DNA of 32,340 nucleotides, taken from assembly GCA_903876875.1 (NCBI GenBank), contig CAIRBT010000031.1, positions 1 to 32,340 of the forward strand, written 5' to 3'. Both the position numbers and the translations under genes were made by a program. The notes beneath the pieces were generated by a model. The model was not told the DNA's origin. It was given only the letters and a program-made list of their open reading frames with translations, and did not search any database. Within the stretch, counting starts at the first letter, position 1, and every line of letters starts with the position of its first letter. Shown here piece after piece: positions 7,607-22,230 of the stretch. Origin of the DNA: an uncultured Geobacteraceae bacterium. GTDB taxonomy: Bacteria; Desulfobacterota; Desulfuromonadia; Geobacterales; Pseudopelobacteraceae.

Positions 7607-8386
7607 TCAGGCGGTGTGCCGTTCACGATACCCGTGGGAAAAGTTATCGTCATACAAGAGGGATTTTGCCTTGAGCCCTTCACGGCGGGCCGCCAGTACG
7701 TCCCCGACGACAATCAGTGCCTGCCGGTCGATGCCGGCCTCACGCACCCGCTCGGCCAGATCGTGAAGGGTGCAGGTGATGATCTGCTCATCGTCCCACG
7801 AGGCGCGGCAGACCACGGCAGCCGGAGTGGCGGTGGTGTATACTCCCTGCAGCAGTTGGGCAACCACCTTTTCAACCATGCCGACGGACAGGTAGATGAC
7901 CATGGTGGCACCAAGTTGGGCTATGGCGTGCAGCTGTTCCCGCTCCGGCACCGGGGTACGCCCCTCCACGCGGGTAAAGATAACGGTCTGGGAAAGTTCG
8001 GGCAGGGTAAGTTCCTGCTTTAATGCGGCGGCCGCCGCAAAGGCACTGGTCACCCCCGGCACCACCTGATAGTCGATGCCGAGGCGGTCAAGGGCTTCCA
8101 TCTGCTCCTGAATGGCACCGTAGATGGACGGGTCACCGGTGTGAAGCCGCACAACGGAACGTCCCGTCGCCACGGAATTCATCATCACGGCAATAACTTC
8201 CGTAAGAGTCATGGCGGCCGAATCATAGATATCTGCTTTGGTGGCATACATCTGCACCAGCTTGCGATCCACCAGACTGCCGGCAAAAATCACCACATCG
8301 GCATGTTTCAGTAAGCGTGCCCCCCGAACCGTAATCAGATCCGAGGCACCGGGTCCGGCTCCCACAAAGGATACTCGTACATCCAT
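7607..8386 (-). CDS. cbiF: Cobalt-precorrin-4 C11-methyltransferase (CbiF/CobM)
   Basis: A 259-residue tetrapyrrole methylase. It has the N-terminal VSFVGAGPGASDLITVRG motif, the RLHTGDPSIYGAI motif at about residues 80-92, VPGVTSAFAAAA at about 109-120, and LIVVGDVL near the end. It methylates C-11 of the corrin ring using SAM, one step before CbiG, so the two adjacent genes act consecutively. The name CbiF fits the anaerobic route implied by cbiG. It is the first gene of the cbiF-cbiG-pdxA operon and has GGAGAG ahead of its ATG. No B12 riboswitch could be recognised in the 174-base gap to the divergent OmpA-family gene. Confidence 0.94.
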   Translation of the reverse strand: MDVRVSFVGAGPGASDLITVRGARLLKHADVVIFAGSLVDRKLVQMYATKADIYDSAAMTLTEVIAVMMNSVATGRSVVRLHTGDPSIYGAIQEQMEALDRLGIDYQVVPGVTSAFAAAAALKQELTLPELSQTVIFTRVEGRTPVPEREQLHAIAQLGATMVIYLSVGMVEKVVAQLLQGVYTTATPAAVVCRASWDDEQIITCTLHDLAERVREAGIDRQALIVVGDVLAARREGLKAKSLLYDDNFSHGYRERHTA

Positions 8387-8419
8387 TCTCTACTCTCCAG
8401 GTACAAATTTCTTTTGGCA

Positions 8420-8448
8420 GTTGTAGCGATAAAGTGCCGCTCTGTCAA
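8420..8448 (-). promoter_or_regulatory. Sigma-70 promoter of the cbiF-cbiG-pdxA operon
   Basis: On the minus strand a perfect TTGACA (-35, at 8448-8443) is followed by a 17-base spacer and TACAAC (-10, at 8425-8420; 4 of 6 consensus). The -10 box lies 33 bases from the cbiF start codon. Confidence 0.62.
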
Positions 8449-8516
8449 GCTGGAGAGGGGTGAAAAACGGGAAGGAGAAAATGAGGAGAGAAGGGGGTAC
8501 CAAAATCGGCATTTTG

Positions 8517-8525
8517 TGGTATATT
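8517..8525 (+). promoter_or_regulatory. Extended -10 promoter for the OmpA-family lipoprotein gene
   Basis: TGGTATATT at 8517-8525 fits an extended -10 (TGnTATAAT) with one mismatch in the hexamer. No clear -35 is seen. The box lies 35 bases before the start codon. Confidence 0.42.
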
Positions 8526-8560
8526 ACTCCAGTTGTGCCTGAATGCTGGAGGGGGAGTAC

Positions 8561-9400
8561 ATGGTTAAGCGTTTATCTGTTTGTCTGGTCAGCGGTTTTT
8601 TATTGTTGTCTACCGGTGGTTGTATGATCGCCGAAAGCACCTACCTGAAAAAAGTTGAGGAAGCTGAACTTGTCACCAGGGATCTTGGTGAATTGCAGCA
8701 GGTCTACAAGAGGCTTTCTCTGGAAAATAGTGCCCTCAAAGTGAAATACAGCCGTCTTGTGGAGGATAGTGCCGGAGTTGCCGCCGAAAAGAAACAGCTG
8801 GAAGGGCTCTTGAAGGCGAAGTCAGACACCCTGTCAAAAAATATCAGTGAAATGCGGCAGAGCGTGGCAGAGTTGCGGACGGAGAATGGCAGCTTGCGGG
8901 ATGAGGTGGCCGCCTTGCAGAAAACCAGGGAGGAAAAAGTCGCAGAGGTGAGCAGTACCTATGAACAGCTGATTGAAATTATGAAAAATGAAATAGCCCA
9001 GGGGCAGGTAACCGTCTCGGAGATGAAGGGGAAGTTGACGGTTAATCTGGAGGCGGCTCTTCTTTTTGATGCCGCTCATAATGTGCGGCCGGAAGGGGTG
9101 GCGATTCTCGGCAGAATGGTTCCAACCCTGAAGGGAGCGAGTGGTAGAGTAATCAGGATTGAGGGGCATACCGACAGCGCACGGATCACCAGTGAACTGG
9201 CGCAGAGCTTTCCGTCAAACTGGGAGCTGTCGGCCATGCGTGCTATCGCCGTTACCAAGTATTTTCAGGAGCAGGGGGTTGATCCGAAATGTCTTTCCGC
9301 CGCCGCCTCTGCCGAGTATAAGCCGGTGGCAGAAAACAGCACCAAAGAGGGGCGCTCCAAAAATCGCCGTATAGAGATATCGCTGGCCGTGAAGGAGTAA
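8561..9400 (+). CDS. OmpA-domain lipoprotein with a long coiled coil
   Basis: A 279-residue exported protein. Residues 1-20 are a signal peptide ending in S-T-G-G before Cys21, a plausible but slightly atypical lipobox. Residues of about 28-160 are heptad-rich with many E, K, L and A, predicting a long coiled coil. Residues of about 163-277 are an OmpA/MotB C-terminal domain that binds peptidoglycan, with GHTDS at 202-206, NWELSAMRA at 220-228 and RRIEI at 269-273. This suggests an outer-membrane-anchored protein tying the envelope to the cell wall. The ATG at 8561 is chosen because GGAGGGGGAG lies just upstream; an in-frame ATG at 8543 lacks a ribosome site and would put charged residues before the signal peptide. 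An Smr gene follows after four bases. Confidence 0.88.
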   Translation: MVKRLSVCLVSGFLLLSTGGCMIAESTYLKKVEEAELVTRDLGELQQVYKRLSLENSALKVKYSRLVEDSAGVAAEKKQLEGLLKAKSDTLSKNISEMRQSVAELRTENGSLRDEVAALQKTREEKVAEVSSTYEQLIEIMKNEIAQGQVTVSEMKGKLTVNLEAALLFDAAHNVRPEGVAILGRMVPTLKGASGRVIRIEGHTDSARITSELAQSFPSNWELSAMRAIAVTKYFQEQGVDPKCLSAAASAEYKPVAENSTKEGRSKNRRIEISLAVKE

Positions 9401-18754: not shown

Positions 18755-18783
18755 TTGAAAAGCTTTACATTCTTGAGTAAAAA
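18755..18783 (+). promoter_or_regulatory. Candidate sigma-70 promoter of the photoreceptor operon
   Basis: TTGAAA (18755-18760), a 17-base spacer and TAAAAA (18778-18783) give a plausible but modest promoter 75 bases before the PYP start codon. The -10 box is overlapped by a small palindrome described separately. Confidence 0.42.
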
Positions 18784-18801
18784 CGTTTACCATTAGTACT
18801 C
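18775..18801. promoter_or_regulatory. Nested palindrome over the -10 box, possible operator
   Basis: GTAAAAACGTTTAC at 18777-18790 has 5-bp inverted arms (GTAAA/TTTAC) and contains the perfect 8-bp palindrome AAACGTTT at 18781-18788. Wider arms GAGTA (18775-18779) and TACTC (18797-18801) enclose it. A repressor bound here would block the candidate promoter. No regulator gene is adjacent, so this is only a structural observation. Confidence 0.4.
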
Positions 18802-18858: not shown

Positions 18859-19239
18859 ATGAGTATTTCTTTTGATCAGCCGGATGCGTTGAGGCAACTG
18901 GAAAACCTAGACGATGCCGCCATCGACTGTCTTGATTTCGGTGTCATCGGCATTGATAAGGATTGTCTGGTGCGAAGGTATAATGCGTATGAATCAAGGG
19001 CAGCGGCACTCGCACCGGCGAAAACGTTGGGTCATGATTTTTTTACAACCGTCGCCCAGTGTATGAATAATTACCTCGTGGCACAACGCTTTGCAGATGC
19101 ACTTGCCAATGGTACCCCGCTGGATGCAACGATTGAGTATATGCTGACTTGGAGAATGCTCCCTACAAAAGCAGAACTTCGTCTGCTGTCAGCACCGGAA
19201 TACCAGACCAGATATGTACTACTTCGTCGCCTCACCTAA
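18859..19239 (+). CDS. pyp: Photoactive yellow protein (PYP) homologue
   Basis: A 126-residue single-domain PAS protein that aligns almost end to end with the 125-residue PYP of Halorhodospira halophila, with only a one-residue loop insertion. Cys68 lies in the chromophore loop (FFTTVAQC, against FFKDVAPC). Tyr41 and Glu45 (YNAYE, against YNAAE) match the two residues that hydrogen-bond the p-coumaric phenolate (Tyr42, Glu46). Later matches are EY at 93-94 and M-x-PTK at 100-104 (Met100 of PYP). Second-shell positions differ: Thr50, Arg52, Pro68 and Thr70 of PYP are Ala49, Leu51, Gln67 and Met69. PYPs are soluble blue-light sensors with a covalent p-coumaroyl thioester. AAGGAG precedes the ATG. 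The histidine kinase starts 10 bases after the stop, so the PYP is its likely partner. A plain PAS domain is the alternative, but the Cys/Tyr/Glu set argues against it. Confidence 0.9.
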   Translation: MSISFDQPDALRQLENLDDAAIDCLDFGVIGIDKDCLVRRYNAYESRAAALAPAKTLGHDFFTTVAQCMNNYLVAQRFADALANGTPLDATIEYMLTWRMLPTKAELRLLSAPEYQTRYVLLRRLT

Positions 19240-19248
19240 GGGGATACC

Positions 19249-21120
19249 ATGCAACCAAAATCTGCAGCTTCTTACGAAGAGGTAATGGGTTTTCTCTATC
19301 GGGCACCTGTGCCGGTGGTACGCATTGCAACGAACGGTGAGATTCTGATGATTACGCCGCCAGCTGCCAATTTGCTGATGCAGTTGACCGGTGGCACGTT
19401 CTTCGGTAACTTTTTTGAGATTATCGAAACCTGTGCCCCAGAGATTAGAAGCCTTATTGAAGGCTTTCCCGGCTCGGGGATAATTTGTGACTCACTACCT
19501 ATTACCGTGGTGCCGAATTCAGTATCTCACAAGGGGTTGATACTACAATTCAACATTCATAAAATAGATGAAGATGAACTGATGGTGATGATTTTAGATG
19601 TCACTGACCAAAAACAGGCTGAGCTCGACCGTTCCCTGCGTGCTGCCATTGTGGATTCCTCCGATGATGCCATTATCTCAAAGAATCTTGATGGCTCAAT
19701 CATGAGCTGGAACAGCGGTGCGGAAAAAATATTCGGCTTTACTGCCGATGAAATGATTGGGCAGTCAATAACGGTACTTATTCCCCCGGAGCTTCTTGAG
19801 GAAGAATCCACCATCGTTACCGCCATCATGCAGGGTGACAAGATTAATCATTTCCGGACGGTTCGGCGTGCCAAAGATGGTCATCTGCTGGATGTCTCTC
19901 TGGCCGTCTCGCCGCTGATTGTCGATGGCAAGATCATCGGTATTTCAAAGATCGCCCGCGATATTTCCGAACGGGTCAGGTTTGATAAAGCACTGGATGA
20001 GGCAGAACTCTTTACCCGTAAGCTTTCCAGTGCGGTAGAACAAAGCCCCGTATCCATAATGATTACTGACACAGAAGGCACCATCGAATACGTGAATCCT
20101 TTCTTCTGTACGCTGACCGGTTATACCGCCGAGGAAGCCATTGGCAACAACCCCCGGTTCCTTAAGGCAGCTATCTCAACTCCGGAAATGTTTGAGAACA
20201 TCTATAGTAATTTACTGGCTGGTCGCCCCTGGGAAGGAGAGTTTGCCAATACGTGCAAGGATGGGCGGCTGATATGGCAACAGGCCACCATTGCTCCCAT
20301 TACCGATGCAAATGGTACGTTTACCCATTACATCAGCATTCTGAAGGATATCACCAGCGAAAAGCAGTATGTTGATGCCCTGATTAAGGCCAAAGAGCTT
20401 GCAGAGGCCTCCAATATCGCCAAGAATCAGTTCATGTCCAACATGACCCATGAACTGCGTACCCCCATGAATGGTATCATGGGGATGCATGAATTACTGC
20501 TGACGACCGATCTTAACGAAGAGCAGATGGAGTTTTTGGGTATCATCGATTTTTCCAGTAACAATCTGCTCAACCTGATTGATGATATACTGGAGATGAC
20601 CCAGATTGGTACCAAGAACTTCACGCTTGTTCGAAGGGAATTCAACCTGTCGGAAGAGATACAAAGCGTAGTTGCTCTCCATAAATCTGTACTGTCCGAG
20701 AAACATCTTGCACTCAACGTGGAGATTGCCCCGGATGTTCCGGTCACTATCATCGGGGCACAATCCCGTGTCAGCCAGGTACTCAACAATGTGCTGAGTA
20801 ATGCGGTTAAATTTACTGCCGCAGGTGCTATCTCGGTGGTGGTAACTGTGACGGACACCCACGCTACGGGGTTGACTGTGCAGATTGCCATCGGGGACAG
20901 CGGCATTGGCATAGCGGCAGAGGCCCTTGACAGAATTTTCTTGCCCTTTAGCCAGGGTGATAACTCTTCAACCCGTAAATATGGCGGCACCGGCCTGGGG
21001 TTGACCATAAGTAAGGCCATTGTGGAGTTGCTCGGTGGCACCATTACCGTAAAAAGTACCCTCGGTGTGGGGAGTTGCTTCACACTGACACTCCCTTTTG
21101 ACTCCGTCGCACCTTCGTAA
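19249..21120 (+). CDS. Soluble triple-PAS sensor histidine kinase
   Basis: A 623-residue kinase with no signal peptide or membrane segment. The N-terminal region (about 15-125) is a divergent PAS-like domain. Clear PAS domains follow at about 130-245 (ending KIARDISER) and 258-370 (ending ILKDITSEK). The dimerisation helix has the phospho-acceptor His401 in MTHELRTPMNGI. The ATPase domain shows the N box (Asn514, Asn518 in VLNNVLSNAVKF), G1 GDSGIGI (549-555), F box FLPFSQGD and G2 GGTGLGL (579-585). There is no receiver domain and no response-regulator gene nearby, so its target is unknown. PAS3 has GNNPRFL where LOV domains have a reactive Cys (GxNCRFL), so it is not a LOV sensor. Co-transcription with the PYP gene (10 bases) suggests it reads the PYP signal in trans. 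Confidence 0.93.
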   Translation: MQPKSAASYEEVMGFLYRAPVPVVRIATNGEILMITPPAANLLMQLTGGTFFGNFFEIIETCAPEIRSLIEGFPGSGIICDSLPITVVPNSVSHKGLILQFNIHKIDEDELMVMILDVTDQKQAELDRSLRAAIVDSSDDAIISKNLDGSIMSWNSGAEKIFGFTADEMIGQSITVLIPPELLEEESTIVTAIMQGDKINHFRTVRRAKDGHLLDVSLAVSPLIVDGKIIGISKIARDISERVRFDKALDEAELFTRKLSSAVEQSPVSIMITDTEGTIEYVNPFFCTLTGYTAEEAIGNNPRFLKAAISTPEMFENIYSNLLAGRPWEGEFANTCKDGRLIWQQATIAPITDANGTFTHYISILKDITSEKQYVDALIKAKELAEASNIAKNQFMSNMTHELRTPMNGIMGMHELLLTTDLNEEQMEFLGIIDFSSNNLLNLIDDILEMTQIGTKNFTLVRREFNLSEEIQSVVALHKSVLSEKHLALNVEIAPDVPVTIIGAQSRVSQVLNNVLSNAVKFTAAGAISVVVTVTDTHATGLTVQIAIGDSGIGIAAEALDRIFLPFSQGDNSSTRKYGGTGLGLTISKAIVELLGGTITVKSTLGVGSCFTLTLPFDSVAPS

Positions 21121-21167
21121 CAGCAGAATAGTATTCAGGCACAGCATATCTGGAGAGGAGACATTGC

Positions 21168-21587
21168 ATGCATTTTCTTATTTATGTCAGCTCGGCGGTA
21201 AAGCCTTTTACCCAGAACGAATTAGTGGACTTATTGACTAAATCGCGGGAAAACAATACCAAAGTCGGTATAACAGGGCTATTGCTTTATAAAAACGGTA
21301 ACTTTATGCAGCTTTTGGAGGGTGAGGAGGAAACTATCCAGACCTTGCATAAAAAGATCGCAGAGGATGAACGGCATAAGGGGCTGATTACACTGCTTCA
21401 GGGGCCTTTACAAGAGCGGGGGTTTCCCGATTGGTCAATGTGCTTTTACGACCTTGCTTCGCCTGACGTTCATAGCATTCCGGGCTATAATGAGTTTTTG
21501 AATACGCCACTTACCGATGAGTCATTTTCCGCCGACCCGACCAGATGTCAAAGATTACTCCGGATGTTCAAGCAGAAGGCTAAGTAG
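21168..21587 (+). CDS. BLUF-domain blue-light photoreceptor
   Basis: A 139-residue protein: a BLUF domain (residues 1 to about 95) with a short C-terminal extension of PixD type. The residues of the flavin photocycle are all present: Tyr6 (FLIYVSS), Asn30 (SRENN), Gln48 (NFMQLLEG), and Trp89 with Met91 (DWSM). The E-D-E-R-H turn at 66-70 also matches. BLUF proteins bind FAD non-covalently; blue light rearranges the Tyr-Gln hydrogen bonds and alters partner binding. There is no output domain, so it must act through another protein. GGAGAGGAG precedes the ATG. It lies 47 bases after the kinase gene and is probably in the same transcript. Because FAD is universal, this receptor needs no extra chromophore gene. 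Confidence 0.94.
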   Translation: MHFLIYVSSAVKPFTQNELVDLLTKSRENNTKVGITGLLLYKNGNFMQLLEGEEETIQTLHKKIAEDERHKGLITLLQGPLQERGFPDWSMCFYDLASPDVHSIPGYNEFLNTPLTDESFSADPTRCQRLLRMFKQKAK

Positions 21588-21642: not shown

Positions 21643-22230
21643 GTGAAGCGAGAACGGTACAAAAATTACAGCCGCATTACCATCGAACCGGGTGAATACT
21701 ACGCCACCTCCGAAATAGCGGTGATTTCCACGTTGCTCGGCTCCTGTGTGGCGGCCTGTCTCTATGATCCCCATAAGAGACTCATTGGCATGAACCATTT
21801 TCTGCTGAGCGGCTCCCCCCTTTCAAAAGCTCAGCTGCTCCGCACGTCGGAGGGGGGGCGCTACGGTGTTCACGCCATGGAGCTGCTGATAAGTGACCTC
21901 GTTGCCAAGGGAGCCGCTCGTTCCGACCTGCGAGCCAAGATATTCGGCGGTGCCACCCTCATTGGCGACCGTGGAGAAACGGAATGTCTTAACCGGATCG
22001 GCAGTGAAAATTGCCGGTTTATCAAGGAGTTTCTGAGAGGTGAAGGAATCCCTGTTGATGCGGAGGATCTTGGCGGGGAATTTGGCCGGGTGATCCATTT
22101 TTCCAATGGGGATTTCTCTATTTACCGTCGAAAGGTTGGTGCCGACCGGAGTGCCAGTCTGGCTCGTCGGGATCGGGAATGCTGGCAGCAGTCGATCCGG
22201 GAGCAGGTGACCGCCCGGCAGTACCATTAA
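21643..22230 (+). CDS. cheD: Chemoreceptor glutamine deamidase CheD
   Basis: A 195-residue CheD. The catalytic cysteine is Cys35 in STLLGSCVAA and the catalytic histidine is His52 in GMNHFLL, spaced 17 apart as in Thermotoga CheD (Cys27, His44). KIFGGATL at about residue 104 is another family motif. CheD deamidates glutamines of chemoreceptors (MCPs), and in some species it binds CheC to tune adaptation. The start is a GTG with no strong ribosome site; it gives a complete N-terminus. No other che gene is in the window. It follows the BLUF gene by 55 bases and the aminotransferase follows after 15, so it could belong to either unit. Its base composition is GC-rich like the core genes, unlike the three genes before it. 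Confidence 0.92.
   Translation: MKRERYKNYSRITIEPGEYYATSEIAVISTLLGSCVAACLYDPHKRLIGMNHFLLSGSPLSKAQLLRTSEGGRYGVHAMELLISDLVAKGAARSDLRAKIFGGATLIGDRGETECLNRIGSENCRFIKEFLRGEGIPVDAEDLGGEFGRVIHFSNGDFSIYRRKVGADRSASLARRDRECWQQSIREQVTARQYH

Follow-up and report, generated by a model that had tools for sequence, protein, structure and literature searches.

Do the adjacent genes for a PYP homologue, a soluble histidine kinase, and a short BLUF protein in a bacterium of the Geobacter lineage form one light-sensing system, or do only some of them belong together? PYP is among the best-studied photoreceptors. How the free-standing protein passes on its signal has nevertheless been called an important gap (PMC12826048). 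The locus lies in a stretch of 32,340 nucleotides (the window), and its features are the following.

18764–18793, + strand: possible sigma-70-like promoter 5' of the PYP gene (consensus scan only, 9/12 matches; weak)
18859–19239, + strand: PYP homologue of the clade C type, 126 aa
19249–21120, + strand: soluble histidine kinase, putative partner of the PYP, 623 aa, with HisKA and HATPase_c
21168–21587, + strand: short BLUF protein of the PixD type, 139 aa (PF04940, E=1e-30)

The gene identities and order given in the original prediction, namely PYP, soluble PAS kinase, and short BLUF protein on the same strand with their key residues intact, are confirmed, and chance is excluded as an explanation. 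The PYP and kinase genes are separated by 9 intergenic bases, and the kinase and BLUF genes by 47, all on the + strand. A single transcript covering the three genes is plausible, because a site scan of the locus showed no terminator-like sequence separating them and a weak promoter-like one ahead of the PYP gene. A cheD-like gene on the same strand (21643–22230) starts 55 bases past the BLUF gene, and its co-transcription is possible; its 81%-identical copy in a related genome (G043, contig C61) reportedly contains an in-frame TAG. We considered, and rejected, synteny conserved on both sides of the triplet, since G043 shares the right flank only: the cheD–aminotransferase–glgP block is kept there, the triplet is absent, and the upstream gene differs.

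Identity of the PYP

The window PYP matches the NCBIfam model TIGR02373 over the full profile with E=6.4e-21. At 74.7 bits, the match falls short of the equivalog cut-off (143), which we do not count as excluding PYP membership because the model catches only about 20% of PYP homologues (PMC9664959). In the PDB it matches only PYPs and proteins derived from them (best E 1.8e-15), and its AlphaFold model superposes on PYP crystal structures with a TM score of 0.87 and deviations of 2.0–2.1 Å. The chromophore-pocket residues Tyr42, Glu46, and Cys69 are present as Y41, E45, and C68. Each of the three is 100% conserved in 82 clade C sequences, which argues for retention of the chromophore in clade C PYPs.

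The signature of clade C, as described by Xing et al. 2022 (PMC9664959), consists of the loss of Phe92, Phe96, and Trp119 with Met100 kept, and the window PYP has I92, L96, Y119, and M100 at these positions. In a tree of 101 sequences, the Halorhodospira-type PYPs split from the window type at 100/100, and the group of the window PYP comprises ten sequences, nine from its own genus and one from a Desulfobacteraceae MAG. By its residues and its place in the tree, the window PYP is thus assigned to clade C.

The kinase and its N-terminal domain

The domains of the kinase are arranged as follows.

19249–19620, + strand: N-terminal "PYP-partner" (companion) PAS, aa 1–124, predicted PAS fold with pLDDT 87
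19639–19965, + strand: second PAS domain, aa 131–239 (PF00989)
20047–20355, + strand: third PAS domain, aa 267–369 (PF13426)
20419–20610, + strand: HisKA phospho-acceptor domain with the H-box MTHELRTP (PF00512)
20758–21102, + strand: HATPase_c catalytic domain (PF02518)

The Pfam scan yields HisKA (E=3e-19), HATPase_c (E=2e-28), and two PAS domains, and the open reading frame carries the histidine-kinase motifs MTHELRTP, DSGIGI, and GTGLGL, that is, a HisKA domain with its H-box together with HATPase_c. The kinase had been described as having three PAS domains. This description holds, with the third one, at the N-terminus, recognized by its predicted fold: residues ~1–125 match no PAS model in Pfam or NCBIfam, and the AlphaFold model of this region has a PAS fold (pLDDT 87) with general likeness only to PAS structures. 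The region is accordingly described here as one predicted to fold as a divergent PAS domain. Among 87 relatives of the domain, only 1–4 reach any one PAS model of Pfam or NCBIfam at E<0.01, and its profile finds nothing significant among the PDB sequences. The near-invariant positions are P20, G30, N54, P64, and D117. In addition, the cysteine C80 (window 19486–19488) is kept in 91% of the sequences.

The companion domain next to clade C PYPs

In the genus of the window, almost all PYPs are directly followed by a protein with a similar N-terminus, and the aligned N-termini of the proteins directly 3' of these PYPs were used to build a profile, called A2. Independently of this profile, a further 80 loci, mostly from Burkholderiales, were gathered from species genomes with the PYP sequence as the sole criterion. 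The companion domain starts 1–288 nt past the end of the PYP domain in 79 of them, and in the exception (L052) the contig ends 290 nt past the PYP. In 16 loci a gene seemed to intervene between the PYP and its partner, but this was rejected as an artefact of ORFs called with starts too far upstream; by the distance between the domains themselves, the two are adjacent. The association of the PYP and kinase genes that had been proposed for the window is thereby borne out, the pair being conserved across relatives in both the family-wide and the locus searches.

An independent check on plasmids gave the same picture, the companion domain following 8 of 9 clade C PYPs, including those of Rhizobium, Sphingomonas, Methylobacterium, and Polymorphobacter. 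On those plasmid records, the genes after the canonical PYPs (Caballeronia, Indioceanicola) encode coumarate-CoA ligase or AMP-binding proteins, with no A2 adjoining. One clade C PYP, that of L163, lacks an adjoining companion domain.

The output domains vary from locus to locus. Pfam scans of 75 partner proteins gave GGDEF in 58, EAL in 28, HisKA/HATPase_c in 15, and HD-GYP in 1, and the companion domain is the sole domain common to all 75. In the kinases of three loci (L075, L098, and L046), it alone is recognizable before HisKA. About half of the loci contain a second, tandem companion-domain protein, and fusions of PYP with the companion domain (Rosetta stones) were not found in the loci.

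The window genome contains two further PYPs, on contigs C22 and C167. Immediately 3' of the former (8349–8705, L039) lies a gene for a hybrid kinase with the companion domain, and after it come genes for a CheY-like regulator and for another large signalling protein. The latter (33811–34170, L038) is an orphan, 73% identical to the window PYP, with no adjoining companion-domain gene. In G043 (contig C54, 5034–11120, L041), two PYPs occur in one cluster, one with a kinase and the other, a divergent one, with an HD-GYP protein.

The two domains also occur together at the level of whole genomes. With a presence threshold of E<=1e-6 in the family search, the family genomes with A2 are precisely the four of 76 that have full-length PYPs; the 72 others, which are rich in ordinary PAS domains, have none. 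A2 is present in 18 of 201 Burkholderiaceae genomes, which share ancestry, so that the co-occurrence does not stem from 18 independent events and formal odds overstate the independence. All 18 have a strong PYP match and an adjacent pair, A2 is found in 0 of the 182 Burkholderiaceae genomes without a PYP match, and one further genome has weak, distant PYP matches only and no A2. The presence and absence of A2 and PYP thus agree throughout the two sets. Co-evolution by tree distances was set aside as main evidence, the correlation of the distance matrices being positive but weak (r 0.15 for PYP and the companion domain, compared to 0.06 for PYP and GGDEF).

Some companion-domain kinases do not adjoin a PYP. 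The window genome itself has two companion-domain proteins away from any PYP (C5, 3714–4076, L152; C86, 9291–9650, L153), and these may be further targets of the same PYPs.

A description of the companion domain was found neither in the texts of PMC9664959 and PMC12826048 nor in searches of the open-access literature. The companion domain of clade C PYPs appears to be so far unnamed, and the window kinase is one of its histidine-kinase versions.

The BLUF gene

The BLUF protein of the window matches PF04940 with E=1e-30 and 106 bits, over the cut-off. Its closest PDB entry is TePixD/Tll0078, and in the alignment with TePixD the photocycle residues of PixD are found as Y6, N29, N30, Q48, W89, and M91. 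A BLUF protein of any kind occurs in 4 of the 76 family genomes, beside a PYP in the window only. The orthologue in G043, 63% identical, is flanked by genes for a LuxR-type regulator and a chemoreceptor and lies close to the end of its contig. In 3 of the 80 other loci a BLUF gene lies within 7 kb of the PYP, never in line with the PYP gene.

As far as seen, the placement of BLUF beside PYP and kinase is specific to the window genome, because so few family genomes have a BLUF gene, the G043 orthologue sits elsewhere, and the right-flank block occurs there without the triplet. BLUF as a conserved third member was thus rejected on the basis of the family-wide searches and the G043 orthologue, and the full order PYP–kinase–BLUF, proposed in the original prediction as something to be sought in relatives, was encountered in no other genome examined. 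Of the combined two-sensor locus put forward there, the conserved PYP–kinase pair stands, whereas the BLUF part does not extend to the relatives. We consider the BLUF gene to be a local neighbour that is probably co-transcribed and may add a second light input.

The combination of PYP and BLUF is rare but recurs, since Caballeronia sp. SBC2 is reported to have two pyp operons that include BLUF (Dohmen et al. 2025, PMC12826048), and on a Comamonadaceae plasmid BLUF lies near a clade C PYP, though arranged differently. A different context is seen in L150 (G038, contig C144), where BLUF forms the C-terminal end of a protein of 1105 aa whose N-terminus resembles an ABC-transporter substrate-binding protein.

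Chromophore supply and habitat

Neither the window genome nor the other three family genomes with a PYP yielded a PF00221 lyase (TAL/PAL/HAL). In the window genome, no coumarate-CoA ligase of the PYP type scores above the cut-off; its acyl-CoA ligases are general ones only. The possibility that the window genome encodes a TAL or a PYP-type coumarate-CoA ligase was rejected on these grounds. TAL is present in just 5% of pyp operons, and uptake of p-coumarate has been suggested (PMC12826048). Some clade C PYPs do adjoin TAL or pCL-like genes. A plasmid of Indioceanicola profundi (L185, 2516–7661) carries a tight run of canonical pyp, pcl, ammonia-lyase, clade C PYP, and GGDEF genes, which ties the clade C PYP to chromophore supply, and the two PYP types of this run possibly share one chromophore pathway.

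The isolate names and PMC8121793 suggest that the named relatives are MAGs from stratified freshwater lakes, in which light and plant phenolics together are plausible. Light sensing, regarded as unexpected for this lineage in the original prediction, becomes less surprising in this setting, and PYPs from Thermodesulfobacteriota have already been counted, at <1% (PMC12826048).

Proposed mechanism and alternatives

What is observed is the pair of genes, a companion domain that almost always adjoins the PYP, the co-occurrence of the two in genomes, and the swapping of outputs. We consider it probable, though by no means certain, that the PYP and the kinase constitute a two-part light-sensing cassette, in which the PYP would control the kinase in trans through the companion PAS. 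The window PYP would bind p-coumaric acid at Cys69, a loading that we infer from the conserved pocket, and blue light would then change its shape. The light-changed PYP would dock on, or release, the companion PAS at the kinase N-terminus, and this putative physical contact would alter the autophosphorylation of the kinase in trans. In other bacteria, the same pair of PYP and companion domain is combined with diguanylate cyclases, EAL and HD-GYP proteins, and kinases. Clade C PYPs show unusual conservation in the helix that follows Cys69, with N70, N71, V74, and A75 invariant and Q76 and R77 at least 90% conserved (window numbering), and this helix is a candidate docking face for the companion domain. 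Points that speak against the cassette are the weak distance correlation, the orphan PYP on C167, the unlinked companion-domain proteins, the PYP of L163, and the missing lyase and PYP-type ligase.

An alternative is that the PYP, the kinase, and the BLUF protein are one evolved two-photoreceptor system with both sensors acting on the same kinase. The common strand, the 9 and 47 nt spacing with no terminator-like site in between, the intact key residues of the BLUF protein, and the operons of Caballeronia sp. SBC2 would fit such a system. We consider it unlikely, as the gene order recurs in no other genome examined, the G043 orthologue is located elsewhere, and no shared partner domain links BLUF with the kinase. 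We have also considered that the PYP and its effector are merely co-transcribed, the PYP targeting another protein and the companion PAS sensing something else. The low probability that we assign to this option takes into account that the companion domain stays constant while the outputs swap, is sometimes the sole sensor domain seen, and is absent from genomes without PYP; on the other hand, the co-divergence is weak, and orphan PYPs and unlinked companion-domain proteins exist.

The chromophore supply raises a different question, namely whether the PYP of this family is still a coumarate photoreceptor or now serves the kinase as an adaptor independent of light or as a sensor for a different ligand. 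PF00221 is missing in 4/4 PYP-bearing family genomes, which are 93–99% complete, and also in 8 of the 26 other clade C PYP genomes searched. However, Y42, E46, and C69 are invariant in the full-length PYPs of the family, unlike in PYPs thought to be function-less, and exogenous p-coumarate together with a broad CoA ligase could suffice, as suggested by PMC12826048. Such a loss of the photoreceptor function appears rather unlikely to us, and the light-sensing cassette is the reading that we prefer. An extended version of the cassette starts from the probable lake habitat of this anaerobic lineage and its lack of any known lyase for p-coumarate synthesis. In it, the PYP would be loaded only in the presence of p-coumarate from plants, so that the cassette would detect the coincidence of light and plant phenolics, with BLUF adding a second light signal to the kinase. 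This version is speculative, and we regard it as quite improbable.

Relation to known systems

The clade C PYPs of Xing et al. 2022 (PMC9664959) resemble that of the window in their signature residues and position in the tree, and in that the gene adjoins one for a signalling protein. The outputs at those loci are mostly GGDEF, whereas in the family of the window they are usually histidine kinases, with one HD-GYP protein, and the text of that study makes no mention of a shared N-terminal companion domain. HisKA/HATPase and GGDEF/EAL genes likewise occur in the pyp operons of Dohmen et al. 2025 (PMC12826048), and two of these operons include BLUF. The kinase genes of those operons tend to precede pyp, in contrast to the downstream kinase of the window, BLUF is found in one organism only, and the text describes no kinase between PYP and BLUF.

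Control of a histidine kinase by PYP, as proposed for the window, has a parallel in Ppr of Rhodospirillum centenum. However, Ppr is a PYP–phytochrome–kinase fusion, whereas in the window the PYP is encoded apart from the kinase, which carries the companion PAS instead. The window BLUF protein is similar in length, fold, and photocycle residues to the short BLUF proteins PixD/Slr1694/TePixD, but no PixE-like gene was seen beside it.

Implications

The stronger result of the present analysis is the companion domain, and the BLUF gene looks like a local addition. We propose that clade C PYP and the companion domain constitute a widespread two-part light-sensing module, which would be a candidate route for the PYP signal. 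Being swapped between kinase, cyclase, and phosphodiesterase outputs, the companion domain is a defined candidate binding partner for clade C PYP and a possible plug-in light switch. With the window locus, the Geobacter lineage gains a candidate for a kinase under light control.
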